Below, piece by piece: positions 45,511 through 64,000 of a stretch of 64,000 nt of DNA; position 1 is the first letter of the stretch; every line of letters starts with the position of its first letter. The notes beneath the pieces are model-generated. The model was not told where the DNA came from. It was given only the letters and a program-made list of their open reading frames with translations, and did no database searches. The translations under genes were made by a program, and so were the position numbers. Origin of the DNA: Nocardia arthritidis (GTDB taxonomy: Bacteria; Actinomycetota; Actinomycetes; Mycobacteriales; Mycobacteriaceae); assembly GCF_011801145.1 (NCBI RefSeq), contig NZ_CP046172.1, positions 5,642,001 through 5,706,000 on the forward strand, written 5' to 3'.

Positions 45511-47328
45511 TCAACGCACTGAGGCCGGGGTGCACCGGTATGCGGTAACCGCGCCCTTGCCGAGCAGCCGCCCGCAGTGGTGCCGGATCCAGCCGACCCG
45601 TTCGTCATCGGATTCGGTGACCAGCACCAACCCGATATCGCCCGCCGCCACCCGGTCGGCGATCTGATCGACGGTCGGTGCGGGAGCGGTACCGGTGAAC
45701 CCGCCGATGGACGGGATCTGTTTACCGGAGACCAGAATGAACGGCGCGGCCACCACCGAGGTGTAGGTGGTGACCGGATACCGGGAGCTGTACGAATTAC
45801 CAACGAACGCAAGTAGTTCCGTCGCCTGATGCACTGCATCCCTGGAGTACCGCTGGGTGACGACGGTCGCCGCCAGCGGTTCGAACGGGGTATCGACGGG
45901 CCCGAAGCGATCGGCCGTCACAGCGACAGATGCCGCCGCGGGCGCGGCCAGCGCACCGATGAGCAGCGCGATCAGCCATCGGCCGCCGAGTAGCCCCAGC
46001 GCGACGCACAGCAGCGCGAAACAGACTATCCCCCACCGCACTTCACGAGGCGCGGGCGCGAGTAACAACCAACCATAGCCGACAGTGGCGATCACCGCCG
46101 CGATCCCAGCCCAACGCACCGCGGGCCGAGCCGCCAGCTCCCGGAATCCCACCGCCCCCATACCGATCAGCGCCGCGATCGAAGGGGTAAGCGACGCAAG
46201 GTAATACGGCGATACCGTACCGATGGCCTGGAATACCACCAGATGCACCAGCAGCGAGCCGCCCCACAGCACAAGCGCCGCCGTCTGCGGCTGTGTCCGC
46301 CGCCCTCGGGACCGAAAGGCCAAGCCCACCAGGCAGATCAGCGCGAGCGGCACCAGCCAGCCGATAGCCCGCCCGCCCCCGCCCGCGAAAATATGCTCCA
46401 TCCGCTGATCCGGACCGAATACCAGGATGTTCCGGTACCCGACCCCGCTGTCACCGACCGCGATATTTCCCGCACCGACACCGAACGAATCGTTCGCCCG
46501 GTTCGCCGCATTGAACAGAAAGACCTGCTCGAAGAGCGAATTATGCTGGCTCCCATCGACATACGGCCGCGAGCCGACCGGTATCGCCGAAACCACCGCC
46601 ATCCACAGCAGCGACACCGCGACGGCGCTACCGGCGAACCAGGCGGTGCCGGTGATCCGCTGCCGCAGTTCGGCTTTCGGTGCGGTGCACAGCACGGCCG
46701 CCACGACGGCGGGTACCACCAGCCACGCCTGCACCATCTTCGCGTTGAAGGCCAGGCCGACGAGGATCCCGGCATATCCGAGATTGCGCAGGCGACCCGT
46801 GGTGAGCGCAACGGCGACCCGGTCGAATGCCAGCACCAGCAGCAGGATCAGCAGCGAATCCGGGACGTTGCCGCGGTTCAGCGCGACCGTCGCGGGTGTC
46901 ACCGCCAGTACGAGCGCCGCGATCAGACCCGCGGCCGGGCCCGAAATCCGTTGCACGGCGCGGAAAAGCACCAGCACGGTGAGCACGCCCTCCACCACCT
47001 GCGGCAGGATGTAGGCCCAGTCGTGCGGGCCGAACACCCGCACCGAGAGCGCCTGCACCCAGAACGCGGCGGGAAGTTTGTCGATGCTGATCGTGGCATC
47101 CGGGTCGAAGGCGGCGAAGAAGAAGTTGTGCCAGCTCATGGACATCGACCGCGCGGCGGCGGCATAGAACATGACCGGCGGCTGGGTCCGGATGCCCCAG
47201 GCATAGCTCGTCGCGGCCAAGGCCGCGATCAGCAGCAGCGCGGGGCGCACCCAGCGTGCACCGTCGCGCCGCGGCAATGATGTTCGGTCGGTTTGGGTTT
47301 CGGGATATGCGATGGTTGTCGCGGTCAT
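45511..47328 (-). CDS. GT39-type membrane glycosyltransferase
   Basis: A 605-aa polytopic protein with about ten to twelve membrane segments. The N-terminal periplasmic loop contains the acidic pair typical of GT39/ArnT/PMT-like enzymes (FDPDATISIDKLPAAFWVQAL), and the C-terminus has a soluble domain. They transfer sugars from polyprenyl-phosphate donors to lipids or proteins outside the membrane. Its ATG overlaps the ABC permease stop (TGATG), so it is the last gene of the PKS-NRPS run. It may glycosylate the product or its precursor, or be a co-transcribed envelope gene. Confidence 0.8.
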   Translation of the reverse strand: MTATTIAYPETQTDRTSLPRRDGARWVRPALLLIAALAATSYAWGIRTQPPVMFYAAAARSMSMSWHNFFFAAFDPDATISIDKLPAAFWVQALSVRVFGPHDWAYILPQVVEGVLTVLVLFRAVQRISGPAAGLIAALVLAVTPATVALNRGNVPDSLLILLLVLAFDRVAVALTTGRLRNLGYAGILVGLAFNAKMVQAWLVVPAVVAAVLCTAPKAELRQRITGTAWFAGSAVAVSLLWMAVVSAIPVGSRPYVDGSQHNSLFEQVFLFNAANRANDSFGVGAGNIAVGDSGVGYRNILVFGPDQRMEHIFAGGGGRAIGWLVPLALICLVGLAFRSRGRRTQPQTAALVLWGGSLLVHLVVFQAIGTVSPYYLASLTPSIAALIGMGAVGFRELAARPAVRWAGIAAVIATVGYGWLLLAPAPREVRWGIVCFALLCVALGLLGGRWLIALLIGALAAPAAASVAVTADRFGPVDTPFEPLAATVVTQRYSRDAVHQATELLAFVGNSYSSRYPVTTYTSVVAAPFILVSGKQIPSIGGFTGTAPAPTVDQIADRVAAGDIGLVLVTESDDERVGWIRHHCGRLLGKGAVTAYRCTPASVR

Positions 47329-48116
47329 CAACTCCGGCCAATCTTGGTGTGCCGCAATCGGAATCGAAATGCGGCCAGAAGCGCGCCGACCAAGCCGACG
47401 CCGAGCAGAACCAGGCAGGGCGTCACGACGGCGCCGAAGCCCTCGCCGCGCAGGATGACATCCTGATAGCCCTTCAAAGCCCAGTACTGCGGTGTGTACG
47501 GCGAGAGCGCCCGCGCCCATCCGGGCAGGGTGGCCCTCGGTGTGATGGTGCCCGCCAGTCCGCCGAGGGCGAGCGACCCGAGCTGCGCCATGATCGACAG
47601 CTGATCGATGGTGCGGCACAGCGAAACAAGCGCGATGCCGAACCCCCAGGTCGCGACGGCGAGGGCGGCGGTGAGCACCGCGATCGGTCCGATCGACCCC
47701 TTGCTGTGCAGATCGAACACCCGGAAGGCGACCACCCACAGGATGGTCAGCTGCACCGCCGAGAAAAGCAGTGTGGGCAAGGACTTTCCGACGATGATCT
47801 CGGCCGCGCGCACCGGCGCCGCACGCAGCCGGTCCCAGGTACCCCACTCGTGTTCGCGGAAGAACGAGGCGCCGAGCAGTGTGGTGATGAAAAAGGCGAA
47901 CAGCACGATGGTGCCCGGTCCGGACTGTTCGGCGCCGTTGGCGTTGAAGTAGCCCGAGAAGCGCAGCTGCGCCTTGTTCGCCGGGGTCAGGAAGGCCATC
48001 ATGCCGATGGGCAGCACGGTGATGACCATCAGCTGGGCCGGATCGTTGCGGATGCGCCGCAGATCCGCCCAGGACAGCGCGCGCACCCTGGCGAGCGCGG
48101 AATCATGCAGCAACAT
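47328..48116 (-). CDS. ABC-2-type exporter permease
   Basis: A 262-aa permease with six membrane segments and the ABC2_membrane layout: cytosolic N-terminus (LLHDSALARVRALSWADLRRI), then MVITVLPIGMMAFL, long loops, and a C-terminal helix. DrrB-like proteins of this type export lipids or antibiotics together with a single ATPase. The start at 48116 has AAGGAA and overlaps the ATPase stop by 14 nt. It pairs with the ATPase encoded upstream. Confidence 0.85.
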   Translation of the reverse strand: MLLHDSALARVRALSWADLRRIRNDPAQLMVITVLPIGMMAFLTPANKAQLRFSGYFNANGAEQSGPGTIVLFAFFITTLLGASFFREHEWGTWDRLRAAPVRAAEIIVGKSLPTLLFSAVQLTILWVVAFRVFDLHSKGSIGPIAVLTAALAVATWGFGIALVSLCRTIDQLSIMAQLGSLALGGLAGTITPRATLPGWARALSPYTPQYWALKGYQDVILRGEGFGAVVTPCLVLLGVGLVGALLAAFRFRLRHTKIGRS

Positions 48117-49062
48117 GTTCGGTTCCTTCTGTGACAACGGTTTTCGCCGGACCCGCCGCCGCGGCCATGATGGCCGTGTACGCGTTCTCCAGGTCCGGGT
48201 GGTGCACCTCGGCCGAGAGCAGCCGCTCGGTGTCGCCGTTGAGGACGGTGAACAGGTGCGCCAGCAGCTGACCGGGCGTTCCGGTCGGAATGGTCAGCCG
48301 GGTTCCGCCGGCGGCCGCGCCGTCGATTTGCCGGAAGCTGTTCAGGCAGTTCGGTATCGCATCCGAGAATTCCAGGCTGACAGCGGCTTTCGCGTATTTT
48401 TCGACCAGCTCGGTGACGCTGCCCTGCGCCAGGATCCGGCCCTGGTGCAATATCACCACCCGCGCGTCGAGCGCCTCCAGTTCCGGCAGGTAGTGCGTCG
48501 CGTAGACCACCGCCGCGCCGCGGTCGGCCAGGCTGCGCACCTCGGCGAGCAGATCGCGGCGGGCGTTGACGTCGGCGCCGACGGTCGGCTCGTCCAGCCA
48601 CAGCACCTCGGGCTCGTGCAGCAGCGCCATCGCGGTGTGCAGCCTGCGCTGCTGACCACCCGAGAGGTGTTCGGCCTTGATATCGAGAAATGCGTTCACG
48701 CCGAGACTTTCGGCCACCGCCGCGACGCGTGGGCCGAGATCCGCACGCCCGACGCCCATCAACCGTCCGAAGAAGATCAGGTTCTCCCGCGCGGTGAGCG
48801 TCGGGTAGACGCCGAGTTCCTGTGGCGCCAAACCCAATTTGCGCCGCGCCTGCCGGGGCCGCTCGCGCACGTCGATGCCCGAGATCCGCACCGTGCCCCC
48901 ATCCGCCGGGGTCAGTCCGGCGACGATCGATGCCGTTGTGGTCTTGCCCGCGCCGTTGGGCCCGAGCAGTCCCAGCACCTCGCCGGGGGCCACCTCGATA
49001 TCTATGCCGCCGAGCACCTTTCGCTCACCATACGACTTGACGAGCCCGCAGATCTCCAGCAT
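48103..49062 (-). CDS. ABC exporter ATP-binding protein (DrrA-like)
   Basis: A 319-aa ATPase. Walker A GPNGAGKTTT (residues 34-43), signature LSGGQQ (133-138), Walker B VLWLDEPT (D157, E158), a switch His in VVYATHYLPE. The C-terminal 90 residues resemble the DrrA regulatory extension. GAGGAGGT precedes the ATG at 49062, inside the end of the MaoC-SDR gene (38-nt overlap). With the downstream permease it likely exports the product of the cluster or gives self-resistance. Confidence 0.9.
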   Translation of the reverse strand: MLEICGLVKSYGERKVLGGIDIEVAPGEVLGLLGPNGAGKTTTASIVAGLTPADGGTVRISGIDVRERPRQARRKLGLAPQELGVYPTLTARENLIFFGRLMGVGRADLGPRVAAVAESLGVNAFLDIKAEHLSGGQQRRLHTAMALLHEPEVLWLDEPTVGADVNARRDLLAEVRSLADRGAAVVYATHYLPELEALDARVVILHQGRILAQGSVTELVEKYAKAAVSLEFSDAIPNCLNSFRQIDGAAAGGTRLTIPTGTPGQLLAHLFTVLNGDTERLLSAEVHHPDLENAYTAIMAAAAGPAKTVVTEGTEHVAA

Positions 49063-50563
49063 CTCGCACCTCCTCAGCGACCGACGGCCAGGGCTGGGTA
49101 TCCGGCCCGATTATCGAAACTTCTCCCGTGCCCGCGTCTTCCGATCGGAACGCGGTGACGATCTCGGCGGCGACCGGCGCGATCGGATGACTGGCGGCCC
49201 GCCCGCCCGGCGTATTCGTCAGGTCGGTCCACAGCCGGGGCGGACGCGCCACCACCACATTCCAGTGATGGTGGTGCGCAAGGTATTTCGCCAGGCCCTC
49301 CAGCGCGGCCTTGGCCGCGACGTAATGCGGCCACCAGCGCGGCGGTTCGACGACGGCCTCGGACGACACCAGCACCACCGTCGCGCCGGGCCGCAGCCGA
49401 GGAGCGCACACCGACAGCGGCCCGAAGACCAATCTGGTGCTCGCGGCCATGAATTGGGCCGCGGGCTCGATGGCGTCGGGCGCCAGCGAGAGGTTCGGGA
49501 TGGCGGGTGCAGCCAGCAGTACGACACCGTCGAGCGGGGTGTCCGGCAGCGCGGTCTGCAGCGCCCAGCCGTCGCTCACGTCGGCGAGCACCGGCACCAG
49601 CCGACCCGTATACCGGCTCGCCGCCTCCATCAGCGGATGCGAGACGCGGGTGCAGCTCACCAGAACTCGCGCGCCCTGGCTCGCCAGCCCGATCGAGACC
49701 GCCGCGCCGAGCCCCCGGCTGCCGCCGACCACGAGAATGGTCCGCCCGGCCAGGTCCTGCGACGGCGGCAGCACCGCCGCCAGCTCGGCCGGGTCCGGTC
49801 CCGGAACCGGTTCGCGGATAAGGCTTTCCACGGTGATGTCGGCGGCGGCGCCGCGCGTGCTGCGCGCCCGCACGGTCACCAGTCCGGAGCCTCGGTCGGC
49901 CTCCGGTTCCTGTGTCTCGAATTTTATTGCGCCGCAGCCCGATCCGCGTAGCCGCATGGTCAACGCGACGAGCAGCGCGTCCCGACCCGGCGTGCACATC
50001 CCGGTCCAGTAGCTGGCCCAGCCGAGCACCGTCGCCAGATGTTCGGGTATCCAGCCGCCGATCACCCTGGCCACCAGTCCGGACACCTGCCGGTAATCGA
50101 TGGCGTACGAACCACGTTCGCGGCCGGGTCCACCCGATGGGCTGATCAGGTGGCCCAGTCCGAGCACCCGCGGCTCGGTGCGCAGCTCCGCGCCGACGGC
50201 GGCCGGACCGCACCACGGCAGCGCTGCGCCGAGCACGCACCGGATATCGACGACCTCGATATCGCCGAACCGCACCCGGCCGCGCGCCCGCCCGTCCGAG
50301 ACCGTCCAGTCGATCTCGTAGCGGCGGCCCGGCAGCGTCGGCTGCCGGAAGATCACCCGGATCTCGTGCACCGTACGCGGATCCAGCAATTCGGCGAGCG
50401 CGCCGAGTGCGAGCGTCACCACCAGCGCGCCGTGCGCGACCGGCCTGCCGTAGGGCGAGCGCCTGCCGAATTCGCCGTCGACGTGCAGCGGGTTGCGATC
50501 GCCCACCGCGCTGGCATACGCGGCGATATCGTTGTCGACGAGCCGGAAAACCCTTGTGGTCAT
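49025..50563 (-). CDS. MaoC-like dehydratase/hydratase - SDR fusion protein
   Basis: A 512-aa two-part enzyme. Residues 5-110 contain the hot-dog R-hydratase motif (AVGDRNPLHVD, with D22 and H27), and residues 110-260 appear to be a second hot-dog-like half. Residues 272-495 form an SDR domain: VVGGSRGLG (cofactor), Ser400 and the Y414-x-x-x-K418 pair (YVAAK). Together the two halves could convert 3-ketoacyl- or 3-hydroxyacyl- to enoyl-thioesters on the ACP encoded just upstream. Overlaps the ACP gene by 4 bp. Fusion of these two activities in one chain in this context is uncommon. Confidence 0.8.
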   Translation of the reverse strand: MTTRVFRLVDNDIAAYASAVGDRNPLHVDGEFGRRSPYGRPVAHGALVVTLALGALAELLDPRTVHEIRVIFRQPTLPGRRYEIDWTVSDGRARGRVRFGDIEVVDIRCVLGAALPWCGPAAVGAELRTEPRVLGLGHLISPSGGPGRERGSYAIDYRQVSGLVARVIGGWIPEHLATVLGWASYWTGMCTPGRDALLVALTMRLRGSGCGAIKFETQEPEADRGSGLVTVRARSTRGAAADITVESLIREPVPGPDPAELAAVLPPSQDLAGRTILVVGGSRGLGAAVSIGLASQGARVLVSCTRVSHPLMEAASRYTGRLVPVLADVSDGWALQTALPDTPLDGVVLLAAPAIPNLSLAPDAIEPAAQFMAASTRLVFGPLSVCAPRLRPGATVVLVSSEAVVEPPRWWPHYVAAKAALEGLAKYLAHHHHWNVVVARPPRLWTDLTNTPGGRAASHPIAPVAAEIVTAFRSEDAGTGEVSIIGPDTQPWPSVAEEVRDAGDLRARQVVW

Positions 50564-50811
50564 GACACATCCGCCTCCCGCGCGGCGGATATGGCGGCGG
50601 CCACCTCGGCGAGCGATACCTCGGAGGTGAGCAGGTTCCCTGGCAACTCGACGCCGAAATGTCGCTCCACCGCGTACACCAGCCGCACCTGGGCCAGCGA
50701 ATCCCAGACGTCCATATCGCCGCGCACGGTGTCGATTCCGTGTACGGCCGGATCGCCGACCACATCGGCGAACAGGGTGAGCAGATCCTCGATCACGCGT
50801 TCAGTGCTCAT
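50560..50811 (-). CDS. Free-standing acyl carrier protein
   Basis: An 83-aa ACP. The phosphopantetheine serine is S38 in DVWDSLAQ, surrounded by the usual four-helix pattern (VIEDLLTLFADVVGD, LVYAVERHFGVELP, SLAEVAAAI). The FkbH-like gene upstream and the MaoC-SDR gene downstream both overlap it, so it probably carries the acyl group that those enzymes build or process. It resembles FkbJ-like discrete carriers. Confidence 0.9.
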   Translation of the reverse strand: MSTERVIEDLLTLFADVVGDPAVHGIDTVRGDMDVWDSLAQVRLVYAVERHFGVELPGNLLTSEVSLAEVAAAISAAREADVS

Positions 50812-52555
50812 GTTGTAGCTGCGCCTCTCGTATATGGGGACTCGCGGGCACGGGGCCGCCGGTGAGGTCGTATCCGAATACCGACACCTCGGGCGTTCGC
50901 CGTTCGGTGTCGAAACCCAGCCGGGGGTACAGATCGGCGACGAGCGCGTTGCGCACGGTCGGCACGTAGCGGCCGGTCAGCTGCCGCGCTCCCCGCTCTA
51001 TCGCCCAATGCGACACGGCGGCAAGCAGATTCGACTCGGCTGTGCGCCCGATGACCCGGCAGCTCAACAGCAGCGTGTCGATCTCGACGCCGTCGCCGAT
51101 ATGTTCGGCGAGCAGCACCCCGACGATGCCGTGGTCGGCGAAGCGGTCGCGCAGCCGCAGCGTCGCGGTGAACCATCGCTCGTCCGTGCGCAATTGGCCC
51201 ACCTCGGCCTGGGTGTGCCTGCGGGTGGTCAGGTTGAACTGGTTGGTCTTCGCGATCAGCTGTGCGGCGCGGTCCAGGGTGCGGGCATCGATCGGTTCGA
51301 TCACCGCGGTCATCTCCAGACCGTCCAGGAATTCGTCGAGGGAATTGCCGACCGACAGCTCCTCCGCGGCGGCCAGCGCCTGGTAGGAGCGTTGCCGAGC
51401 GAAATCCTCCGCCGAGAGCGTGCCCGGCTGCAACCACGGCACCGCGGCCAGCGCGGCCGGGAATTTCGACGGCGCGACCGGCAGGCAGATGGCACGCACC
51501 TGCGGATGCGCCGCCACCACCTGCTCACATTCGGCCCGGTTGTCGTCGACGAAGACCATACTGGCCAGACCGAGTCGCAGCTTGTTCGAAATCTCCTTCA
51601 GCTGTTCGGATTTCGGCCGCCAGTCGGCGACTACGCAGGCGAAGTCCGACGGGCGCAACACCATTCCCGGCGTCTCGGCGAGCGCCTCCAGCGCGAGCTC
51701 GCGATCGTTCTTGCTGGCCACCGCGAGCAGCACACCGCGCTCGGTGAGCCCGCGCAGGTATCGCTGGAAGTCGGCGAACGCCTCACCTTCCGCGCCGACG
51801 CCGACGCGGACACCGGTGATGCCGTCGTCGCCGAGCACGCCGCCCCACAGCGTCCCGTCCAGATCGACGACCACGCACCGGGCCGACAGCCCGCGATCGG
51901 CGGCGATCGTGTCCGCGATCGCGGTGGCCAGCCATGGCAGGCTGTCGGCCGCGAACGGTTGGCGCATCGCGTACCAACCGCGCCCATCCTCCCAGTTGCG
52001 CAGCCCGACCTGGGCGGCGAGCTGTTCGACATCGACGAAAAGCACACGGCCCGCGGCATATTCGGCCAGCTGCCGGTTCACCTCACGCACCAGCGCGGAA
52101 CGCGACCGCGGGGTGCGCAGCGCCGCGCCCCGATACGGGTCGAGCACCGGCGGCGCGAAACCCAGCTGCACCACCCGCACGCCGAGCCTGGCCGCGGCCT
52201 CCCACAGACCGACCCAGCGGCGCACACTGTCCTCCACGGTATCGACGAGATCGTGGTGACTGCCCGCGAGCACCACGTAATCGCCCTCGCGCAAATCGTT
52301 TTCGCCGTCGAACAGCACCTGTTCCAGCTGGCCGAAGGGGAAGGTGCGCAGCTGCGCGGACAATCCGGCGCGGGCCGCCGCCAGCGGCAGCAGATCGGCC
52401 AGGAATTCCGCGGCGAAGGTGGCCAGCAGCGCGATCCGCACCGGTGGCCGCCCGGCCGCGTCCGGATCCGGTTGCCGCTCGAAGGCTTTCGCGCGTTCGG
52501 CCCAGGCCGGATAGCCCGCGTCGGCGCGTAGCTCAGTGGCCAAGCGGGAGTGCAT
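50801..52555 (-). CDS. FkbH-like HAD phosphatase/acyltransferase (glyceryl-ACP formation)
   Basis: A 584-aa protein with the HAD-IIIC/FkbH layout. The N-terminal 220 residues are a helical lobe. The HAD catalytic motif DLDGTLWGG is at residues 231-239 (nucleophile D231, D233), followed by AVASKNDRELA and VFVDDNRAECE. The C-terminal 170 residues contain a GNAT-like fold (FTATLRLRDRFADHGIVGVLLAEHI). In FK520-type pathways FkbH takes 1,3-bisphosphoglycerate, removes one phosphate and loads glyceryl on an ACP. The start at 52555 is chosen within a longer frame; it overlaps the BtrH-like gene by 23 nt. The coupled ACP supports the same role. Confidence 0.85.
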   Translation of the reverse strand: MHSRLATELRADAGYPAWAERAKAFERQPDPDAAGRPPVRIALLATFAAEFLADLLPLAAARAGLSAQLRTFPFGQLEQVLFDGENDLREGDYVVLAGSHHDLVDTVEDSVRRWVGLWEAAARLGVRVVQLGFAPPVLDPYRGAALRTPRSRSALVREVNRQLAEYAAGRVLFVDVEQLAAQVGLRNWEDGRGWYAMRQPFAADSLPWLATAIADTIAADRGLSARCVVVDLDGTLWGGVLGDDGITGVRVGVGAEGEAFADFQRYLRGLTERGVLLAVASKNDRELALEALAETPGMVLRPSDFACVVADWRPKSEQLKEISNKLRLGLASMVFVDDNRAECEQVVAAHPQVRAICLPVAPSKFPAALAAVPWLQPGTLSAEDFARQRSYQALAAAEELSVGNSLDEFLDGLEMTAVIEPIDARTLDRAAQLIAKTNQFNLTTRRHTQAEVGQLRTDERWFTATLRLRDRFADHGIVGVLLAEHIGDGVEIDTLLLSCRVIGRTAESNLLAAVSHWAIERGARQLTGRYVPTVRNALVADLYPRLGFDTERRTPEVSVFGYDLTGGPVPASPHIREAQLQHEH

Positions 52556-55246: not shown

Positions 55247-58200
55247 GCCTCGACCTCCTGTCGGGCCGGCTCCGCGAGAAACCCGATCTTGCGGAAGTAA
55301 CTCAGGTAGCGTTCGAACAGCTCTCGCGACACGGGCGGGCACGCCACATCGAGCCGGGCCAGCGCCGGATCGGGCGCGAATCGCAGTGCGGGCGCGAGGC
55401 CGTCGTGCCCGCCGAGCAGGCTCAGCACCCGGTGCGCGGCCGAATCCGGTGCGGTGGCGGCGTATTCGGTGATCGCCGCGCGCCATTCCGGAATATCGGC
55501 GGTGCGCAGCTCCCAGCCCGCACCGCGCAGCCACTCGACCGCCTCGGCGAACGCACCCGGCGCGTGGTTGCGGATGTGGTAGATGTTTGCGCCCGGCCCG
55601 GTTTCGCGGGCCAGCTCCACCATGGCGGCGGCGGCGAAATCGGCCGGGGCCAGATCGACGACGAAGTCGACGTCCGGCGCCAGCCCGGCCTCCTGGCTCG
55701 CCTTCACAAGCAGCCAGAAGAAATCGCTGGTCTGGCAGGCGCCGGTGACGCTGTCCCCGGCGATCCGGCCGAGCCGGAAGACGTTCACCGGCAGCCCGCG
55801 CTCCCCTGCCGCGCACACCAGGCGTTCGGCCACCCACTTCGTCTGCAGATAGCCGAGCGCCAGCCGGGACGGATCGCGGGCGAGCGCGGGCGCGCCGATC
55901 TCGCCCGCCGCCGCGTCGCCGGGGCCGAGCACGTACAGCGAGGACACGAAATGCAGTGGGGTGCCCGCGATCCGGGCCAGCGCGATGATCTCCTGCGTAC
56001 CCGCGACATTGGCCGCGGCCAGCGAATCGTATGGCAGCGCGAAGTTCACCTGCGCGCCGTTGTGGTAGATACCGTCCACGCGACGGCCGAGCAGCAGGAA
56101 TTCCTTCTCGGACAGGCCGAATCGCGGTGCGCCGAGCTCGCCGAGCACCGGGATGACCCGGTCCAGGCCGTCGGTGGGCAGTTCGTATGCCTCGAAGGCC
56201 GCGACAAGCCGCGCCAGCGCCGCGTCCGCGGTCTGCGCGCGCACCAGGCAGTGCACCCGGGAATCGGTGCGCCGCAACAGCTCACGCAGCAGGAACGCGC
56301 CGACGAAGCCGGTCGCGCCGGTGAGCAGCACCTCGCCCGTCCGTGGCCGGGCGGCCGGGATCGGGACGTCCGGCCAGGCCGCGATTCCGGCGCGCACCTG
56401 CGCCGCCAGATCGATGGCGGCGGCCTCCTCCGCTGTTCCGGACAGCAGCGCGACCACGCCGGCGACGGTCGGCCGCGCGAACACCGATCCGAGCGGAATA
56501 TCCTCGGCGAACGTCTCTTTCAGCCGCAGGATCAACTGGGCCGCCAACAATGAATGCCCGCCCAGATCGAAGAAGTTGTCCGTGCGCCCGACCCGGGGCA
56601 CGCCGAGCACCTGTGCGAAGACACCGGCCACCCGCTGCTCCAGCGGGGTGCGCGGCGGTTCGTACTCCAGCGTCGTGCGCCGCACCGTGGGCGCGGGCAG
56701 CGCGCGCCGGTCCAGTTTTCCGTTGGGGGTCAACGGGAAACCGTCGAGAACGACGACGGCCGACGGCACCATGTGCTGGGGCAGTCGCCGGGCCAGCCGG
56801 GCCCGCACCGCGACCGCCAGATCGGCACGCGCCTTGACCCGCAACGGATCCGAGACCACCGGCTCGTGCAGCCAGTCCGTATCCCGCCGCGGGATCGCCA
56901 CCGGTCCGCTGTCGGCACGCGCGGCGACGACGTCGTAGCGGCCACCGGGACGGCGCAGCGCCTCCACCCGATACGGCAGCCGATCGGCCAGCCGCAGATA
57001 GTCTTCCGGATTCCGGCCGCCGGATTCGGCCAGCACGGCGCGGATCCGGGCGGCGTTGATCCGGCCGCGGCCGAATTCCTCGACCAGCGCGACGGGTCCG
57101 GCCACCCGGCCGTCCGTCACGTCCGGAACGATCACCGCCGCCGGGGCCTCCCGCTCCAGCAGTTCGGCGAGCAGCTCCGGGCTGGTGCCCGCGTTCAGCG
57201 CCTGCGGCCGCACCGGCAACCGCCCGAGGTCGGCGTGCAGCACCGCGTCGTAGCGGAAACGCGACATCTCGTTGAGGTGCACACCGCGCTTGAGCCGGAT
57301 CCGGCAGCAGGCGAACCGGCTGTGTGCCGCGGCGAAATCGTGGAAGTACTTGGGCGACAACACCAATTCCGCGTCATTCTCGACACCGGCCTTGGTCGCG
57401 GCCGCCAATTCGGCGGAGTGCGCGTTCGGGGCGGCGGCCGCCGCCACCGAGGCGTGGAAGGCCGCGTTCAGCGTCAGGTCCCGCACATCGCCGACATACA
57501 GCACGCCGCCGGGCGCGAGCAGGTCGGCCGCGGATTCCAGTACGCGGGTGAGATATTCGGCGCTCGGGAAGTACTGCACCACCGAATTGATCAGCACCAG
57601 GTCGTAATGAGCGCCCAGGTCGGGCAGTTCGTCCGCGGCGCACTGGAACAGACGGACGTGGCCGAGCCCATCGGGTTCGACGATCTTCGTCCGCACCTGT
57701 TCGACCGCCGATGCGGACAGATCGGTGGCGTCGTAGTGCTCCGCGTCCGGGGCCAGCCGGGAGAGCAGCAGGCCGGTGCCGCAGCCGATTTCGAGGATCC
57801 GGCGGGGCGCGCGGGCGTCCGGCGGCGCGAAGCCGCGCACGGCGGCCACGGTCGCCTCCACCCATTCCCGCATATGTTCTTCCGGGATCTCGGCGTTGGT
57901 GTAGGAGCTGTTCCAGCCGGTGATGTTGAAATCGGCGGCCAGTTCGGCGCGTTCCTGTCCGTAGGTGCTGTCGAAGACGGCGGCCCAGTCGGCGACCTGA
58001 TCTGCCTCCGGCGCGGCCTCCGACGCCGCGTCGGGCGTGAGATACGCGGTGAGCGCGACATTGCCGCCCTCGGTGCGGGCGATCACCACCGCCTCGCCGA
58101 CACCCGGCTGCGCCGCGATGGCGGCCTCGATCTCGCCGAGTTCGATCCGGAAACCGCGCACCTTCACCTGCTGATCGATCCGGCCCAGGTATTCGAGTTC

Positions 58201-60849
58201 GCCGTCGGCGCGGCGACGGGCGAGATCACCGGTCCGGTACACCCGCCGACCGTCCAATACCGGGCTGGGCAGGAATCTTTCGGCCGTCAGCTCGTCGCGG
58301 CCGAGATAGCCGCGGCCGACACCGGCGCCGCACACGTACATTTCGCCCGCGACACCGTCGGGCACCGGATTGCCGGCCGAATCCAGCAGCAGCACACCGA
58401 GATCCGGCAGCTGCGCGCCGATCACGCTGCCGACGCCCTCGGCCACCTCCGCTCGGGTGAGCTCGCGATAGGTGACGTGCACCGTGGTTTCGGTGATGCC
58501 GTACATATTCACCAGCCGGGCGCGGTCGCCGTAGCGGTCGAACCATGGCCGCAGGGTCGCCGGGTCCAGCGCCTCGCCGCCGAAGATCACCCACCGGATC
58601 GCCGGATCCGCCGCACCGTCCAACGTCCGCAGCAGCTGGACGAAGGCCGATGGCGTCTGGTTCAGCACGGTGACCCGCTCGCGGATCAGCAGTTCGGCGA
58701 ATTGTTCGGTGGCGCGACCGATTTCGCCGGGCACCACGACCAGCTTGCCGCCGTGCAGCAGCGCACCCCACAGCTCCCAGACCGAGAAGTCGAAGGAGTA
58801 GGAGTGGAACATCGTCCACACGTCGTCCGGGCCGAAGTCGAACAGATCCGCGGTGGTCGAGAACAGCCGCACCACGTTGGCATGCTCGATGACAACGCCT
58901 TTCGGCACGCCGGTCGAGCCGGAGGTGTAGATGACGTATGCGGCGTCCGAGGGCCGAGGCAGCGAAAATTCCTGCGGTGCGACGGCTTCGTCGATTTCGT
59001 CGATCGACAGGAGCCGCGGCCCCTCCAGCGCCGAGGAGCCGTCGGTGAGGATCAGCCGGGCTCCGGAGTCGGCGATCATGAACTCGACCCGCTCCGCCGG
59101 ATACATCGGATCCAGCGGCACATATGCCGCGCCGACGCGAAGCACCGCGAGTATCGCGATCACGACATCGGCCGACCGATCGAGGTGGATGCCGACGAAA
59201 TCCCCGCGCGTGACACCGTTTTCGGCCAGCACTCCGGCGAGCCGGGCCGCCGCGGCGTCGAGTTCGGCGTAGCTGAAGTCCCGGTCGCGATCCGTGAGGG
59301 CGATCGCATCGGGCGTCCGCGCCACCTGCGCCGCGAAGAGTTCGGGCAACGTCGCGGCCGGTTCCGCCGCCTCCGCGACCGGCAGCGCGGCCGCGACGGC
59401 CCGCTCCCGTTCCTCGGGCGCGAGGATGTCGAGTTGCGGCAGCGGTGTATCCGGCTCAGCCACCACGGCGGCGAGCAGCGCCTGGAAATGCCGGGCGATC
59501 CCGGTGACCGTCGACTCGTCGTAGAGGTCGACGTCGTATTCGATGCCGCCGACGAGTTCGTCGTCCACCGCCCGCAGCGTCACCAGCACGTCGAATTTCG
59601 TTGTCCCCGAATGCACGTCCAGGAATTCCGCGCGCACACCCGGCACCCGCAGCTCCGGCATTCCGGTGTTCTGCAGGACGAGCGCGGTGCGGAACAGCGG
59701 CGAGTGGCTCAGCTCGCGATCCGGCCGCACCTGCTCGACCACCAGGTCGAACGGCACCTCCTGGTGATCGAAAGCCGCCGATACCACCCGCAATTCGCGG
59801 GCGAGCAGCTCGCGGAAGGTCGGCGCGCCGGACAGATCGGTGCGCAGCGCGAGCGCGTTGACGAAGAATCCGATCAACGATTCCACCTCGGGCACGGTGC
59901 GATTCGCGATCGCGGTGCCGACGGTGATGTCCTCGGCGCCGGTGTAATACCGCAGCAGCGCCTTGAATCCGGCCAGCAGCGCGACGAACAGCGTCGCGGG
60001 CCGGTCGTCCGCCCGCACCGATCCGGCCAGCCGCACCAGATCACGGTGCAGCTCCGCCGGAATCGTGAACGGCACTCGGGCGCCGCGGTTCTCCGGTTCG
60101 GCGGCCCGGGGGCGGTCGGGATGGAAGGTCACCAGCGGCGGTTCGTCGCCGAGCACGCCGCGCCAGTACTCCAGCTCGCCCGCGAAGCGGTCGCGCTGTT
60201 CGCGTTCGCGCAGCCAGGTGGTGAAATCGCCGTACTGCACCGGCAATTCGCGCACCCTCGGGGGCCGGTCGTCGACGTAGTCGGCATATGCCGACATCAG
60301 CTCGGTGGCGAAGACGCCGAGCGACCAGCCGTCGGAGATGATGTGGTGCATGGCCACCGCGAAGTAGGCGTCGTGCTCGTCGAGGCGCACCAGCAGCGTC
60401 GCGAACAGCGGGCCGGACAGCTCGAAGACCGTGCGGCCGAATGCCTCCACCCGGGCCAGCGCATCCGCCGCCGGCCGCTCCGGATCCAGCTCGGACGGCT
60501 CGACCACCGTGAGCGGCACCGGTCCTGCCGGGTTTATCACCTGAACCGGCACGCCGTCACGCAGTTCGATGCCGGTGCGCAGCGCCTCCTGACCGCCCGC
60601 GACCAGCGTCAGCGCGCACCGGAACGCGTTGAGGTCGAGCCTGCCCTTCAGCCGCAGCGCCAGCGGCATGGTGTAGGTGGCGCGGTTCGGAAACAGCTGT
60701 TCCAGGAACCAGATCCGCTGCTGCGCCGCCGAGAGATCGGCGACCGAGCGGTCCGGGCGCTGCGGGATGGTGGGCCGGGCGATCATCCCGGTCGCCCAGC
60801 GCCGCAATAGTTCTCGGCGGGAGGCCCGCGCGTCCACGTGCTCAACCAT
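55243..60849 (-). CDS. NRPS: C-A(Thr)-nMT-T-R
   Basis: An 1868-aa single-module NRPS. Condensation domain at about 38-480 with HHIISDG (168-174). Adenylation domain 500-935, core A3 YTSGSTGVPKG (641-651), and pocket residues D687, F688, W691, N730, I755, G757, M782, V790, H791, K1378, giving DFWNIGMVHK, the known threonine code. An N-methyltransferase is inserted between A8 and A10 (about 945-1330, EIGCGTG 1020-1026, NSVVQYFPS, MSRFRYDAVLH). Carrier domain S1433 (DLGGHSLL). C-terminal thioester reductase from about 1505: GATGFVG, YxxxK pair Y1667/K1671. Release should give an aldehyde or alcohol. The 8-bp overlap with the PKS gene couples the two. Confidence 0.95.
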   Translation of the reverse strand: MVEHVDARASRRELLRRWATGMIARPTIPQRPDRSVADLSAAQQRIWFLEQLFPNRATYTMPLALRLKGRLDLNAFRCALTLVAGGQEALRTGIELRDGVPVQVINPAGPVPLTVVEPSELDPERPAADALARVEAFGRTVFELSGPLFATLLVRLDEHDAYFAVAMHHIISDGWSLGVFATELMSAYADYVDDRPPRVRELPVQYGDFTTWLREREQRDRFAGELEYWRGVLGDEPPLVTFHPDRPRAAEPENRGARVPFTIPAELHRDLVRLAGSVRADDRPATLFVALLAGFKALLRYYTGAEDITVGTAIANRTVPEVESLIGFFVNALALRTDLSGAPTFRELLARELRVVSAAFDHQEVPFDLVVEQVRPDRELSHSPLFRTALVLQNTGMPELRVPGVRAEFLDVHSGTTKFDVLVTLRAVDDELVGGIEYDVDLYDESTVTGIARHFQALLAAVVAEPDTPLPQLDILAPEERERAVAAALPVAEAAEPAATLPELFAAQVARTPDAIALTDRDRDFSYAELDAAAARLAGVLAENGVTRGDFVGIHLDRSADVVIAILAVLRVGAAYVPLDPMYPAERVEFMIADSGARLILTDGSSALEGPRLLSIDEIDEAVAPQEFSLPRPSDAAYVIYTSGSTGVPKGVVIEHANVVRLFSTTADLFDFGPDDVWTMFHSYSFDFSVWELWGALLHGGKLVVVPGEIGRATEQFAELLIRERVTVLNQTPSAFVQLLRTLDGAADPAIRWVIFGGEALDPATLRPWFDRYGDRARLVNMYGITETTVHVTYRELTRAEVAEGVGSVIGAQLPDLGVLLLDSAGNPVPDGVAGEMYVCGAGVGRGYLGRDELTAERFLPSPVLDGRRVYRTGDLARRRADGELEYLGRIDQQVKVRGFRIELGEIEAAIAAQPGVGEAVVIARTEGGNVALTAYLTPDAASEAAPEADQVADWAAVFDSTYGQERAELAADFNITGWNSSYTNAEIPEEHMREWVEATVAAVRGFAPPDARAPRRILEIGCGTGLLLSRLAPDAEHYDATDLSASAVEQVRTKIVEPDGLGHVRLFQCAADELPDLGAHYDLVLINSVVQYFPSAEYLTRVLESAADLLAPGGVLYVGDVRDLTLNAAFHASVAAAAAPNAHSAELAAATKAGVENDAELVLSPKYFHDFAAAHSRFACCRIRLKRGVHLNEMSRFRYDAVLHADLGRLPVRPQALNAGTSPELLAELLEREAPAAVIVPDVTDGRVAGPVALVEEFGRGRINAARIRAVLAESGGRNPEDYLRLADRLPYRVEALRRPGGRYDVVAARADSGPVAIPRRDTDWLHEPVVSDPLRVKARADLAVAVRARLARRLPQHMVPSAVVVLDGFPLTPNGKLDRRALPAPTVRRTTLEYEPPRTPLEQRVAGVFAQVLGVPRVGRTDNFFDLGGHSLLAAQLILRLKETFAEDIPLGSVFARPTVAGVVALLSGTAEEAAAIDLAAQVRAGIAAWPDVPIPAARPRTGEVLLTGATGFVGAFLLRELLRRTDSRVHCLVRAQTADAALARLVAAFEAYELPTDGLDRVIPVLGELGAPRFGLSEKEFLLLGRRVDGIYHNGAQVNFALPYDSLAAANVAGTQEIIALARIAGTPLHFVSSLYVLGPGDAAAGEIGAPALARDPSRLALGYLQTKWVAERLVCAAGERGLPVNVFRLGRIAGDSVTGACQTSDFFWLLVKASQEAGLAPDVDFVVDLAPADFAAAAMVELARETGPGANIYHIRNHAPGAFAEAVEWLRGAGWELRTADIPEWRAAITEYAATAPDSAAHRVLSLLGGHDGLAPALRFAPDPALARLDVACPPVSRELFERYLSYFRKIGFLAEPARQEVEA

Positions 60850-63793
60850 TGTCGTTCCGTTCCTCCGCGGGCTCGGCGAGCAGCAGCTCGACCTCGCCGT
60901 CGGACATTGCTTCCAGCCGCTGCATCAGGTGATCGCCGATGCGCTCGGTCATCGCGGCGATGGTCGGCTTGGCGAACAGCTCGCCGAGCGGCAGTTCCAG
61001 CGGGAACACGGCCCGCAACCGGGTCGCGACCTGCACGGCGAGCAGCGAATCACCGCCCGCCTCGAAGAAATTCGCGTGCTCGTCGATGTCGTTGACGCCC
61101 AACGCGGTGCGCCACACCTCGGCGACGCCGCTCCGGATCGATTCCGTCAGTTCGTCTTCCGGCGGGAAGTCGTCGAATGCCTCGGCCGCCTCGACAATCG
61201 GCTCCGGGACCGGTTCGGCGGATATCGGGCGCGGCGCGTCCGGCGGCTCGATCCAGTGCCGCTGCCGCGCGAACGGATAGGTCGGCAGGCTGACGAATCC
61301 GGCGCGCGGGCGGCCGTGTACGGCAGCGAAATCGACGTCTACCCCGCTGACCCACAGCCGTCCGGCCGCCACCACCACCGCCTCGCCGGTACCCGTGCCG
61401 CTGGCGACGGTCGTCGCCGATCGATCGGCGGTGCGCAGGAACGAGATCAGCGTCCGTCCCGGACCCACCTCGAGTCCGACGGTGGCCGACTGTCGCGCGC
61501 CGAGCGCCTCGGCGGCGGCGCGGAACCGCACCGGACCGGTCATCTGCGCGGCCCAATAGCCGGGATCGGTGGCCTGTTCGGCGGTGATCGGCGCTCCGGT
61601 GTGATTGGACCAGAACGGTATCCGCGGCGCCTGCCGGGGTACGGACGCGACGAGTTCGGCGAAGCGCGCCGCCGCATCCCGCAGATACGGGGTGTGGAAG
61701 GCGTGCCGCACCGGAAGCAGGGCCGTCGCGGCATTCTCCGCCGCCAGCTCGCCCGCCAGCCGCTGCACCGCCTCGGGCGATCCGGCGACGACGCACCTGG
61801 TGGCCGAGTTGTCCGCGGCCAACCAGACGCCTTCCGGCAGTCGGTCTTCGATATCGGCCGCGCCGAGCGACACCGTCAGCATCGCGCCGTCCTGGCTGGC
61901 CGCCATGAGCCTGCCGCGCGCCACCACCAGCCGCAGTGCGTCCGGTAGCGCGAAAACACCGGCGACCGTCGCGCAGACCAGTTCGCCCAGGCTGTGACCG
62001 AGCAATTCCTTTGGTGCGACACCGAATTCGCGCCACATGTGGGCCAGGGCGTATTCCACCGCGAACAGCGCGACCTGATCCCGCGCCGGATCGCCGCCGT
62101 CACCGATCGCCCGCGCCAGATCGAAATCCGATTCCGCGCGCAGCAATTCGGCGCATTCGCGTAGACCCGCGCCGAATGCGGGCACCGCGGTGGCCAGTTC
62201 GTTCCAGCCTGCCCCGAGCGTGATGCCCTGTCCGGGGAACAACCACACCAGTTCCGGCGCGGGCTGTGCCTGCCCCGCGATCGGTTCGGTCAATGCCTGC
62301 GCGGCCGCGGCGACCGTCGCGCCGACGGCGACCCGCCGGTGTGTGAAGCGGCGCCGGCCATAGGCCAAAGTGTCCGCGATAGACGACAATTCCTGCTTCG
62401 TATCGCGGAGGTGGGTGGCCAGGTCGGCGGCGAGCCGGTCCGCCTCGGCGGCGGTGCGGGCGGAGACGAGCAACGCCTGCGGTCCGGTCGCGTCGGCCGA
62501 ATTCGCCCGCGCGGGCGGCCGTTCCAGGATCACGTGCGCATTGGTGCCGCCGATCCCGAAGGCGCTCACCGCCGCGCGACGCCGCTCGTCGGGCCACTCC
62601 CGCAGTTCGGTATTGACGAAGAACGGGCTGTTCGCGAAGTCGATCTCCGGGTTCGGTCGGGTGAAATGCAGGCTGGCCGGGATCTTTCCGTCCCGCACGG
62701 CCAGCACCGCCTTGATGAACCCGGCCACGCCCGCCGCCGAATTGAGGTGTCCGACATTGGTTTTCACCGAGCCGATGGCGCAGAACTGCCGGGCCTCGGT
62801 GTGCTCGCGGTAGGCCGAGGTGAGCGCGGCGATCTCGATCGGGTCGCCGAGCCGGGTGCCGGTGCCGTGCGCCTCGACGTAGCCGATGCTCTCCGCCGCG
62901 ATACCCGCGACATCGAGCGCCTCCCGGATCACGTTGCGCTGCCCGGTGATCCCCGGCGCGGTATAGCCGACCTTGCGGCCGCCGTCGTTGTTCACCGCCG
63001 AACCGATGATCACCGCGTGGATGTTGTTCCCGTCGGCGAGCGCGTCGTCGAGTCGTTTCAGCACCACCGCACCGGCGCCGGAACCGAATACCGTCCCGGC
63101 AGCCGCCGCGTCGAACGCGCGGCAGTGCCCGTCCGGGGACAGGATCGAGCCTTCCTCGTAGACGTATCCCGTCTCGTGCGGCACCTGCACGCTGGCCCCG
63201 CCCGCCAGGGCGAGATCGCAGTGGAAGTCGAGCAGTGCCTGTACCGCCTGATGGATGGCGACCAGCGAGGTCGAGCAGGCGGTCTGCACCGCGACGCTCG
63301 GCCCGGTCAGGTCCAGCTTGTAGGACACCTTGCTGGCCAGGTAATCCGAGGCGTTCCCGTGCAGCACGGGCAGCTGCGTGCTCGGCGTCTCGAACAGCCC
63401 GCCGTGCCCGATGAGGTTGTTCAGCAGGTAGGTGCTGACGCCGGCGCCCGCGAAAACGCCTACGGGGGACGGATTTTCGCCGGGCACGAAGCCCGCGTCC
63501 TCGAAAGCCTCCCAGGCGCAACGCAGGAACAGCCGGTGCTGCGGATCGGTCAGCTGCGCCTCGCGCGGGCTCATCCCGAAGAAATCGGCGTCGAAGCGGT
63601 CGACATCGGACAGCGTCGCGCCGACGTGCACGTAACCGGCGGGCGTTCGGGCCGGACGGGTCTCGGCGGCCAAGGGCCGCAACGACTCCCGGCCCGCGCA
63701 CAGGTTCCGCCAGTACTCCTCGACGGTATCCGCCTCCGGGAAGTGGCAGGCCATGCCGACCACGGCGATCCGGAATGCGTGTTCGTCCGTCAT
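60842..63793 (-). CDS. Type I PKS module: KS-AT(malonyl)-ACP
   Basis: A 983-aa module. Ketosynthase at 1-430: C173 (TACSTSLVA), H309 (HGTGT), K344 and H349 (KTNVGH). Acyltransferase at 515-800: S601 in GHSLGE, substrate motif HAFH (697-700), which indicates malonyl-CoA. Carrier domain near 860-935 with S916 (EAGGDSLLA). No ketoreductase, dehydratase or enoylreductase, so a beta-keto group should be left. It extends an intermediate from the upstream megasynthase and passes it to the NRPS. AAGGGAG precedes the ATG, which overlaps the upstream stop (ATGA). Confidence 0.95.
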   Translation of the reverse strand: MTDEHAFRIAVVGMACHFPEADTVEEYWRNLCAGRESLRPLAAETRPARTPAGYVHVGATLSDVDRFDADFFGMSPREAQLTDPQHRLFLRCAWEAFEDAGFVPGENPSPVGVFAGAGVSTYLLNNLIGHGGLFETPSTQLPVLHGNASDYLASKVSYKLDLTGPSVAVQTACSTSLVAIHQAVQALLDFHCDLALAGGASVQVPHETGYVYEEGSILSPDGHCRAFDAAAAGTVFGSGAGAVVLKRLDDALADGNNIHAVIIGSAVNNDGGRKVGYTAPGITGQRNVIREALDVAGIAAESIGYVEAHGTGTRLGDPIEIAALTSAYREHTEARQFCAIGSVKTNVGHLNSAAGVAGFIKAVLAVRDGKIPASLHFTRPNPEIDFANSPFFVNTELREWPDERRRAAVSAFGIGGTNAHVILERPPARANSADATGPQALLVSARTAAEADRLAADLATHLRDTKQELSSIADTLAYGRRRFTHRRVAVGATVAAAAQALTEPIAGQAQPAPELVWLFPGQGITLGAGWNELATAVPAFGAGLRECAELLRAESDFDLARAIGDGGDPARDQVALFAVEYALAHMWREFGVAPKELLGHSLGELVCATVAGVFALPDALRLVVARGRLMAASQDGAMLTVSLGAADIEDRLPEGVWLAADNSATRCVVAGSPEAVQRLAGELAAENAATALLPVRHAFHTPYLRDAAARFAELVASVPRQAPRIPFWSNHTGAPITAEQATDPGYWAAQMTGPVRFRAAAEALGARQSATVGLEVGPGRTLISFLRTADRSATTVASGTGTGEAVVVAAGRLWVSGVDVDFAAVHGRPRAGFVSLPTYPFARQRHWIEPPDAPRPISAEPVPEPIVEAAEAFDDFPPEDELTESIRSGVAEVWRTALGVNDIDEHANFFEAGGDSLLAVQVATRLRAVFPLELPLGELFAKPTIAAMTERIGDHLMQRLEAMSDGEVELLLAEPAEERNDNG

Positions 63794-64000
63794 GGCCTGC
63801 TCCCTTCACGATCGGCCCGGCCGCGCGGACGGCGGTCGGCGGTGCGCCGGGCCATGGCGGCGCGGCGCTCGCGGCCGCGGTCGGATTCCGCGGCGGGCGC
63901 GAGCCGCCCGGACAGCAGCCGCGCGAGATCGTCGACGGTCGGCGCGGCGAACAGATCGGTCAGCGCCAGTTCGACATTCAGCCGCCGCTCCAGCAGCCCA
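63790..64000 (-). CDS. C-terminal end of an upstream PKS or NRPS (partial)
   Basis: About 69 codons of a larger gene are visible; it enters from the right edge. The translation ends in a carrier-domain C-terminal half (LLERRLNVELALTDLFAAPTVDDLARLLSGRL), followed by an Arg-rich tail of about 40 residues. Its TGA overlaps the PKS ATG by 4 bp. The pattern fits either an ACP or a peptidyl carrier protein. The domains that determine what it loads are outside the window. Confidence 0.8.
   Translation of the reverse strand, partial: GLLERRLNVELALTDLFAAPTVDDLARLLSGRLAPAAESDRGRERRAAMARRTADRRPRGRADREGSRP

Follow-up and report, generated by a model that had tools for sequence, protein, structure and literature searches.

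In the vioprolide pathway, a FAAL-ACP-C-FkbH-T assembly line (FAAL, fatty acyl-AMP ligase; ACP, acyl carrier protein; C, condensation domain; T, thiolation domain) links, via an ester, a fatty acid and a unit derived from glycerate (PMC8949500), and the same architecture is described for corramycin (PMC10099666). Tetronate gene sets contain FkbH and a free ACP carrying glycerate, together with FabH (PMC4979870). In malleicyprol biosynthesis, BurF, a hybrid of polyketide synthase (PKS) and nonribosomal peptide synthetase (NRPS), carries a C domain that forms an ester, another domain similar to the N-terminal extension of FkbH-like proteins, and a terminal reductase. The aldehyde from this reductase undergoes a Knoevenagel-type closure to a butenolide, which the authors liken to pyrrolinone formation in the cytochalasins (PMC12304814). 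All four descriptions are given here as far as excerpts of these papers carry them. Here we describe a hybrid PKS-NRPS operon of Nocardia arthritidis that shares several of these parts. The stretch of DNA analysed (the window, 64,000 nucleotides) covers bases 5642001-5706000 within a 10.0 Mb one-contig genome. We tentatively propose, with somewhat less than even confidence, that the operon directs synthesis of a lipid-tailed N-methylthreonine aldehyde, or a ring-closed form of it, and that a cassette of FkbH, ACP, MaoC-SDR fusion (SDR, short-chain dehydrogenase/reductase) and BtrH-like protein supplies a three-carbon hydroxyacid to an NRPS module that lacks an adenylation (A) domain.

The conserved unit consists of 12 abutting genes on the minus strand, from 47328 to about 73203 in continued window numbering. 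The order of transcription is Rce1/CAAX-like, PKS1, NRPS1, PKS2, NRPS2, FAAL, BtrH-like, FkbH, ACP, MaoC-SDR, ABC ATPase and ABC-2 permease. Adjacent genes overlap or abut, which suggests a single transcript. NRPS1 with the domains C-X-T-C-A-T, PKS1 with ACP-KS-AT-ACP (KS, ketosynthase; AT, acyltransferase) and the Rce1-like gene lie wholly or mostly past position 64000 and were read from the next 40 kb and the joining stretch.

We infer each chemical step of the proposed pathway and take the order of the steps from domain and gene order. The FAAL would load a fatty acid onto the N-terminal ACP of PKS1, which would add an unreduced malonyl unit. FkbH would load glycerate, from glycolytic phosphoglycerate, onto the free ACP. 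The MaoC-SDR fusion would dehydrate the glycerate to the enol of pyruvate and then reduce it to lactate, and the BtrH-like protein, as a cysteine acyltransferase, would hand the acid on to the C-T module of NRPS1 that lacks an A domain. The C domain of this module would couple the three-carbon acid to the chain. NRPS1 would then add one amino acid, PKS2 a second unreduced malonyl unit and NRPS2 N-methyl-threonine. Release by the reductase (R) domain would give an aldehyde that could close on the beta-keto amide to yield a 3-acyl-pyrrolinone, and the ABC pair would export the product.

One support for the proposed role of the cassette is the association of FkbH with MaoC-SDR. MaoC-SDR homologues were searched in named genomes, and the best 80 of 275 confirmed loci were compared. 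A match spanning at least 400 residues, i.e. the full fusion, is found in 13 of these 80 loci. FkbH lies within the locus for 12 of the 13 full fusions versus 2 of the 67 partial matches (Fisher p 1.9e-11, kinship of loci ignored); at the 13th full fusion, L065, the contig ends right after the MaoC-SDR gene. The 12 loci include Nocardia, Saccharothrix, Mangrovihabitans, Streptomyces niveus, Nitrospira, Halioglobus, Magnetospirillum, Desulfarculus and a Planctomycetaceae genome. For Streptomyces niveus (L066), MaoC-SDR-FkbH-ACP-KS form one protein, which looks like a PKS loading module making its own three-carbon starter; an AT-bearing frame lies upstream of it. In Halioglobus (L067), an ACP and an AAC(3)-like acyltransferase come after FkbH; in Desulfarculus (L069), a GNAT and a polysaccharide deacetylase take this place, and one Nitrospira locus has a hexapeptide-repeat protein ahead of FkbH. 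Two short loci, L063 (9 kb) and L064 (11 kb), contain FkbH and the fusion, and no PKS or NRPS domain was seen in them. This recurrence of the pair across phyla and in clusters that are not related links MaoC-SDR to the product of FkbH rather than to a PKS.

Conservation of the catalytic residues is in line with an active cassette. In an alignment of 36 sequences (the protein itself and 35 of 90 other homologues), residues D22, H27 and Y414 of MaoC-SDR are invariant and K418 is at least 90% conserved. The FkbH-like protein scores above the curated cut-off of TIGR01686 and keeps DLDGTLWGG and SCRVIGR in 14 orthologues. We predict that MaoC-SDR is a dehydratase-reductase acting on the FkbH-loaded acyl-ACP. 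The most likely job of the recurrent pair, usually accompanied by a carrier, would be the formation of a lactyl-type acyl carrier from glycerate. PKS1 and PKS2 contain neither ketoreductase (KR) nor dehydratase (DH) domain, and the fusion, whose catalytic residues are conserved in both halves, might instead process in trans the beta-ketoacyl intermediates that these two PKSs leave unreduced, with FkbH, ACP and BtrH-like protein adding plain glycerate. We consider this improbable, since FkbH accompanies the fusion in 12 of the 13 loci, among them L063 and L064, where no PKS or NRPS domain was seen, and is fused to it ahead of ACP and KS in S. niveus.

Beyond the present operon, the FkbH, ACP and MaoC-SDR genes could represent a portable set that converts phosphoglycerate to lactyl-ACP in several phyla, through dehydration and renewed reduction, with an exchangeable acyltransferase picking the acceptor: a protein of the BtrH/CcbD fold where the set belongs to an NRPS cluster, and an AAC(3)-like, GNAT or hexapeptide protein in other settings. 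In Nocardia, this set would feed an A-less NRPS module in trans and thereby allow lactate entry independent of an A domain. We regard this generalization as possible but rather doubtful.

The transfer step would depend on the BtrH-like protein. Its designation as a BtrH-like acyltransferase in a preliminary description of the window holds at the level of fold and not at the level of Pfam, as the protein reaches 13.7 bits against BtrH_N (PF14399) and remains below the gathering cut-off of 29.7. Two homologues (P0045 and P0048) do carry PF14399. With a predicted structure model, CcbD, CtaG and AziU3 are the only chains matched at E < 0.001, with 12-18% identity, and their fold is shared over most of the protein. 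The structure of CcbD was solved together with a peptidyl carrier protein domain. The conserved Cys-His-Asp set is retained, and we predict from the model a carrier-protein-dependent acyltransferase. We take CcbD to belong to the celesticetin and CtaG to the closthioamide pathway; AziU3 may itself be no acyltransferase. In overlapping samples of 394 class-level and 396 phylum-level genomes, one match besides the source genome was found (G259), and neither FkbH nor MaoC-SDR was found within the 40 kb read around this gene. Starting from MaoC-SDR loci, a BtrH-like protein was found in 2 of 9 genomes.

The candidate acceptor is the first module of NRPS1, a C-X-T module without A domain whose C domain has an intact HHxxxDG motif. 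Among 75 C domains in 12 other NRPS loci of the source genome (out of 102 matches in this one genome), three directly precede a T domain and 65 an A domain. Beyond Pfam, the C, A and T domains were annotated by BLAST with the domains of this cluster and a small T profile, which divergent domains can escape. Of the four further actinobacterial NRPS clusters that contain both FkbH and MaoC-SDR, three likewise have a carrier without full A domain. In Nocardia sp. RYN_116 (L062/G111), the cassette with BtrH, FkbH, ACP and MaoC-SDR belongs to a different NRPS cluster, in which a C domain with only a C-terminal A fragment is followed by T-C-A(Thr)-T-TE (TE, thioesterase). A gene of L074/G906 begins with T-C and is cut by the contig end, and one of L060/G898, a cluster without BtrH, begins with T-C-A.

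Region X comprises about 160 amino acids between C and T and has no Pfam match above cut-off. A protein search that scored 7990 candidates returned its own protein as the sole match. Region X is much shorter in nine orthologues and contains a repeat array in one genome (G131), so it looks dispensable. In this genome (locus L039+L040), the array lies within region X as the linker of the C-T megasynthase and is built of tandem GEGAGIAGEHAGVA units. By its position, and by analogy with the FkbH-like domain of BurF (PMC12304814, in excerpt), an origin of region X as an FkbH remnant would be attractive, but hhalign, Pfam and the protein search turned up no support for it.

Several points weigh against the delivery of lactate to this module. 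CcbD-type enzymes give the acyl group to a free amine and not to a carrier. That the unit would be lactate and not glycerate is an argument from enzyme logic. Bryostatin reportedly offers a precedent for glycerate-derived lactate starters; no text stating this was found in the literature searched. In Saccharothrix (L061/G899), the cassette stands beside C-A(Thr)-T, a free-standing C and C-A-T, and an A-less carrier was not found in this cluster. Region X shows an hhalign probability of 0.3% to FkbH and to the cis C-HAD segment (three X sequences, degenerate). In a FastTree phylogeny, the first C domain of NRPS1 falls outside the clade of 12 Nocardia C domains that are fused to FkbH in cis (support 1.0) and groups on a long branch with C domains of L061/G899 and L060/G898 (support 0.89). 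The tree includes 113 domains from sets that cover 6 of the 14 orthologous loci, contains long branches and was built with the vioprolide C domains outside. A C-FkbH-type, ester-forming character of this domain is unsupported by the tree, and we therefore do not call it a vioprolide-type domain. According to excerpts of the oocydin work, the DH beside FkbH in OocJ was judged non-functional because DH motifs are missing (PMC4552970), so it is no help to the lactate step. A pathway model in PMC7901079, as far as the excerpt goes, lets the FkbH reaction give D-lactate-ACP and cites for it a paper titled on glycerate starter units, which is not decisive.

The same observations can be read as tailoring. 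The BtrH-like protein would then transfer the C3 acyl group from the cassette ACP onto the completed product, at an amine or hydroxyl that most probably lies close to the threonine, and the A-less C-T module would be a pass-through or otherwise loaded. BtrH and CcbD act on free small-molecule acceptors, and CcbD, CtaG and AziU3 are the sole folds matched at E < 0.001. Elsewhere, FkbH occurs near other acyltransferases, AAC(3)-like in L067 and GNAT in L069. Each of the three types of BtrH-bearing cluster in which an A domain could be read contains one with a threonine code, namely the family of the window, L062/G111 (DFWNVGMVH) and L061/G899 (DFWSVGMVH), and there is no threonine code among the three A domains read in the BtrH-less L060/G898; the A domain of L074 is unreadable and stands outside this count. 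This co-occurrence fits an acyl group going to threonine. Against tailoring stand the A-less module, for which it offers no explanation, and the number of clusters behind the threonine link, which is three. We rate tailoring as rather unlikely on balance. The supply of the A-less module remains our preferred reading for the operon, at the tentative level given above.

The preliminary description had listed a malonyl PKS module, a reductase-terminated N-methylthreonine NRPS, a FAAL, an FkbH-like protein with its own ACP, a MaoC-SDR fusion and ABC exporter genes as parts of a hybrid PKS-NRPS cluster, and profile searches and motifs bear out each of these (Table 1). The FAAL-type protein combines an AMP-binding fold with a DIP2-like C-terminal domain. 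Against PRK05850, the NCBIfam model for fatty-acid--AMP ligase, it reaches 493.8 bits and stays under the cut-off of 775; no FAAL model shown reached its cut-off. The AT of PKS2 carries HAFH, presumably the malonyl-type motif. With Pfam, we found no KR, DH or enoylreductase (ER) domain in PKS1 or PKS2, so each would add an unreduced malonyl unit. The pocket codes of the A domains were obtained by alignment to GrsA positions. The pocket of NRPS2 reads DFWNIGMVH, and the 14 orthologues depart from it only by a valine at the isoleucine position and, in one case, a serine at the asparagine position. We take DFWNIGMVH to be the threonine code, with the pocket positions from GrsA. The methyltransferase (MT) domain lies inside the A domain of NRPS2. 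Its reductase domain reaches 294.4 bits against TIGR01746 with a cut-off of 213.35, and the cofactor motif TGATGFVG and the Tyr/Lys motif YLxxKW are found in 14 orthologues. The A domain of NRPS1 has the pocket DALHAGLVA here and DALH[A/G]GLVA overall, to which no substrate was assigned. In its second C domain, five orthologues have HHIVCDA in place of HHIVCDG.

Comparison of gene order across Nocardia, which had been proposed as a check, shows the operon in syntenic form in 14 other genomes, and the arrangement is therefore not due to chance. Among 150 Nocardia genomes, 16 contain the BtrH-like protein and 15 of these, including the source genome, hold the operon, about one genome in ten. In the 16th genome, G111, the cassette sits in another NRPS cluster. 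All 12 genes are present in the same order in 13 of the 15 carriers (source genome included). In G080 and G090, contig ends truncate the operon and the Rce1-like gene has no match; the remaining 12 of the 14 other loci do match this gene, although in G136 just its first half aligns. Best-match identity across loci amounts to 49-60% for the Rce1-like gene and to 59-80% for the run of genes that starts with NRPS2 and ends with the permease. Motifs of KS, AT, C, R, FkbH, ACP, MaoC and SDR are retained in the readable orthologues, a set that leaves aside NRPS1 and PKS1 of G080 and G090 (genes off contigs) and NRPS1 of G111.

The borders 45511..64000 given in the preliminary description could not be maintained. 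The GT39 gene is indeed present and matches PMT_2/GT39, but it has to be rejected as a cluster member, since no match to it was found in any of the 14 other loci with 6-24 kb searched past the permease gene. The same holds for the other flanking open reading frames that were tested, which are likewise unmatched in these loci. Among the 15 strains compared, GT39 adjoins the operon only in the present one, and it may have been acquired later. The upstream border is less certain: past the first gene, 1.0-2.6 kb could be read in 12 loci, and G080 and G090 offered no sequence there.

The claim that no described cluster has this gene set stands as far as titles and abstracts in the literature searched are concerned, in which most subscription journals are outside, and no paper combining BtrH and FkbH was found there. 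The set is not confined to this strain, as 15 of 150 Nocardia genomes carry it. Hybrid clusters of N. brasiliensis IFM 10847 and HUJEG-1 were counted in 2014 (PMC4035055, in excerpt). IFM 10847 is a carrier, with NRPS2 to permease visible at its locus, so the operon may already be listed there without a product. That it makes a known Nocardia metabolite from an already described gene cluster, and would be ordinary in this sense, could draw on this count; given the titles and abstracts searched, we consider it very improbable. The cluster is one more orphan hybrid cluster, with a product that is likely new and a kind that is not.

Table 1. Coordinates of the operon genes and the adjoining GT39 gene in window numbering, continued past 64000 for the upstream genes.
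Feature	Position	Strand	Evidence
ABC-2 type permease, last gene of the operon	47328..48137	-	Pfam ABC2_membrane E 5.8e-24; 75-80% identity in 14/14 other loci
ABC transporter ATPase (DrrA-like)	48103..49062	-	PF00005 E 4.2e-30; 71-75% identity in 14 other loci
MaoC-SDR fusion	49025..50563	-	PF01575, PF00106
Free-standing cassette ACP	50560..50811	-	PF00550 E 2.3e-5; WDSL motif in 14/14 orthologues
FkbH-like protein	50801 to ~52555	-	TIGR01686 259.5 bits vs cut-off 146.65
BtrH-like protein	52533..53519	-	CcbD/CtaG/AziU3 fold (predicted model)
FAAL-type protein	53516 to ~55246	-	PF00501, PF23024
NRPS2, C-A(Thr)-MT-T-R	55243..60849	-	Pfam; TIGR01746; Thr pocket, reductase motifs
PKS2, KS-AT-ACP	60842..63793	-	Pfam; motifs
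NRPS1, C-X-T-C-A-T	63790..69159 (= L012:8790-14159); 3' end 63790..64000 inside window	-	
PKS1, ACP-KS-AT-ACP	69143..72373 (= L012:14143-17373), beyond window	-	
Rce1/CAAX-like membrane protein, first gene of the operon	72370..73203 (= L012:17370-18203), beyond window	-	
GT39/PMT_2-type membrane glycosyltransferase, abuts downstream end of the operon in present strain	45511 to ~47337		

Three gene starts were set later than in the list of open reading frames: FkbH at MHSRL and not at the first start codon of its frame at 52891, FAAL at MTTLVDAL, and GT39 near 47337. The ABC ATPase reaches 215 bits against TIGR01188 and lies under the cut-off of 312. The Rce1/CAAX-like gene opens the operon in every copy whose contig extends to it and is shortened in G136; its role is possibly self-protection or maturation.

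As a novelty, the FkbH/MaoC-SDR pair is the better-supported point compared with the list of parts. If our reading is true, the tailoring set of FkbH, ACP and MaoC-SDR gains a specific reaction, and hydroxyacid units become predictable in peptide clusters where no A domain explains them. The operon points to an unassigned lipopeptide-type product common to 15 of the 150 Nocardia genomes. The cassette could be its instructive part, with the FkbH/MaoC-SDR pair coupled here to an enzyme of the CcbD fold and to a module lacking an A domain.

Two known FkbH pathways were rejected for this operon. The methoxymalonyl-/hydroxymalonyl-ACP pathway needs an acyl-ACP dehydrogenase and a 3-hydroxyacyl dehydrogenase beside FkbH and ACP, and neither was matched among the 12 proteins. 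Tetronate sets, as excerpted, resemble the cassette in FkbH and free ACP; in contrast to them, there is no FabH-like match among the 12 proteins, and release would occur by a reductase domain. A separate FkbH cluster occurs in many Nocardia: a giant KS-AT-...-C-FkbH protein followed by a T-R gene, seen in 12 of 12 stretches (L203-L214, 11 other genomes). By count, 44 over-cut-off FkbH matches fall in open frames longer than 2000 amino acids. Six of the 12 stretches show a FAAL, and a scan of two stretches confirmed DH and KR in both. These FAAL-ACP-KS-AT-DH-KR-ACP-C-FkbH plus T-R clusters share genus, FAAL, PKS, C, FkbH and reductase logic with our operon. They differ in FkbH in cis and in the DH-KR of the PKS (two confirmed), and no BtrH, no MaoC-SDR and no A domain except the FAAL was found in the 18-20 kb stretches read. 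They resemble the reductive butenolide logic of malleicyprol as excerpted (PMC12304814).

Vioprolide and corramycin, within the limits of the excerpts, are like our operon in that a FAAL-loaded fatty acid meets an FkbH-derived three-carbon acid at an A-less C-T unit. In contrast to both, our operon encodes FkbH, ACP and transferase as individual proteins, with no FkbH placed in cis between the C and T domains, MaoC-SDR is added, and KS-AT-ACP stands between the FAAL-loaded ACP and the C domain. BurF, known to us by excerpted description and not compared in sequence, is likewise a PKS-NRPS ending in a reductase, whereas our line continues with two NRPS elongation modules and a second PKS module. 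By analogy, and as far as these excerpts reach, the vioprolide, corramycin and malleicyprol precedents support the logic of a fatty acyl-malonyl chain plus an FkbH acid and of reductive release.

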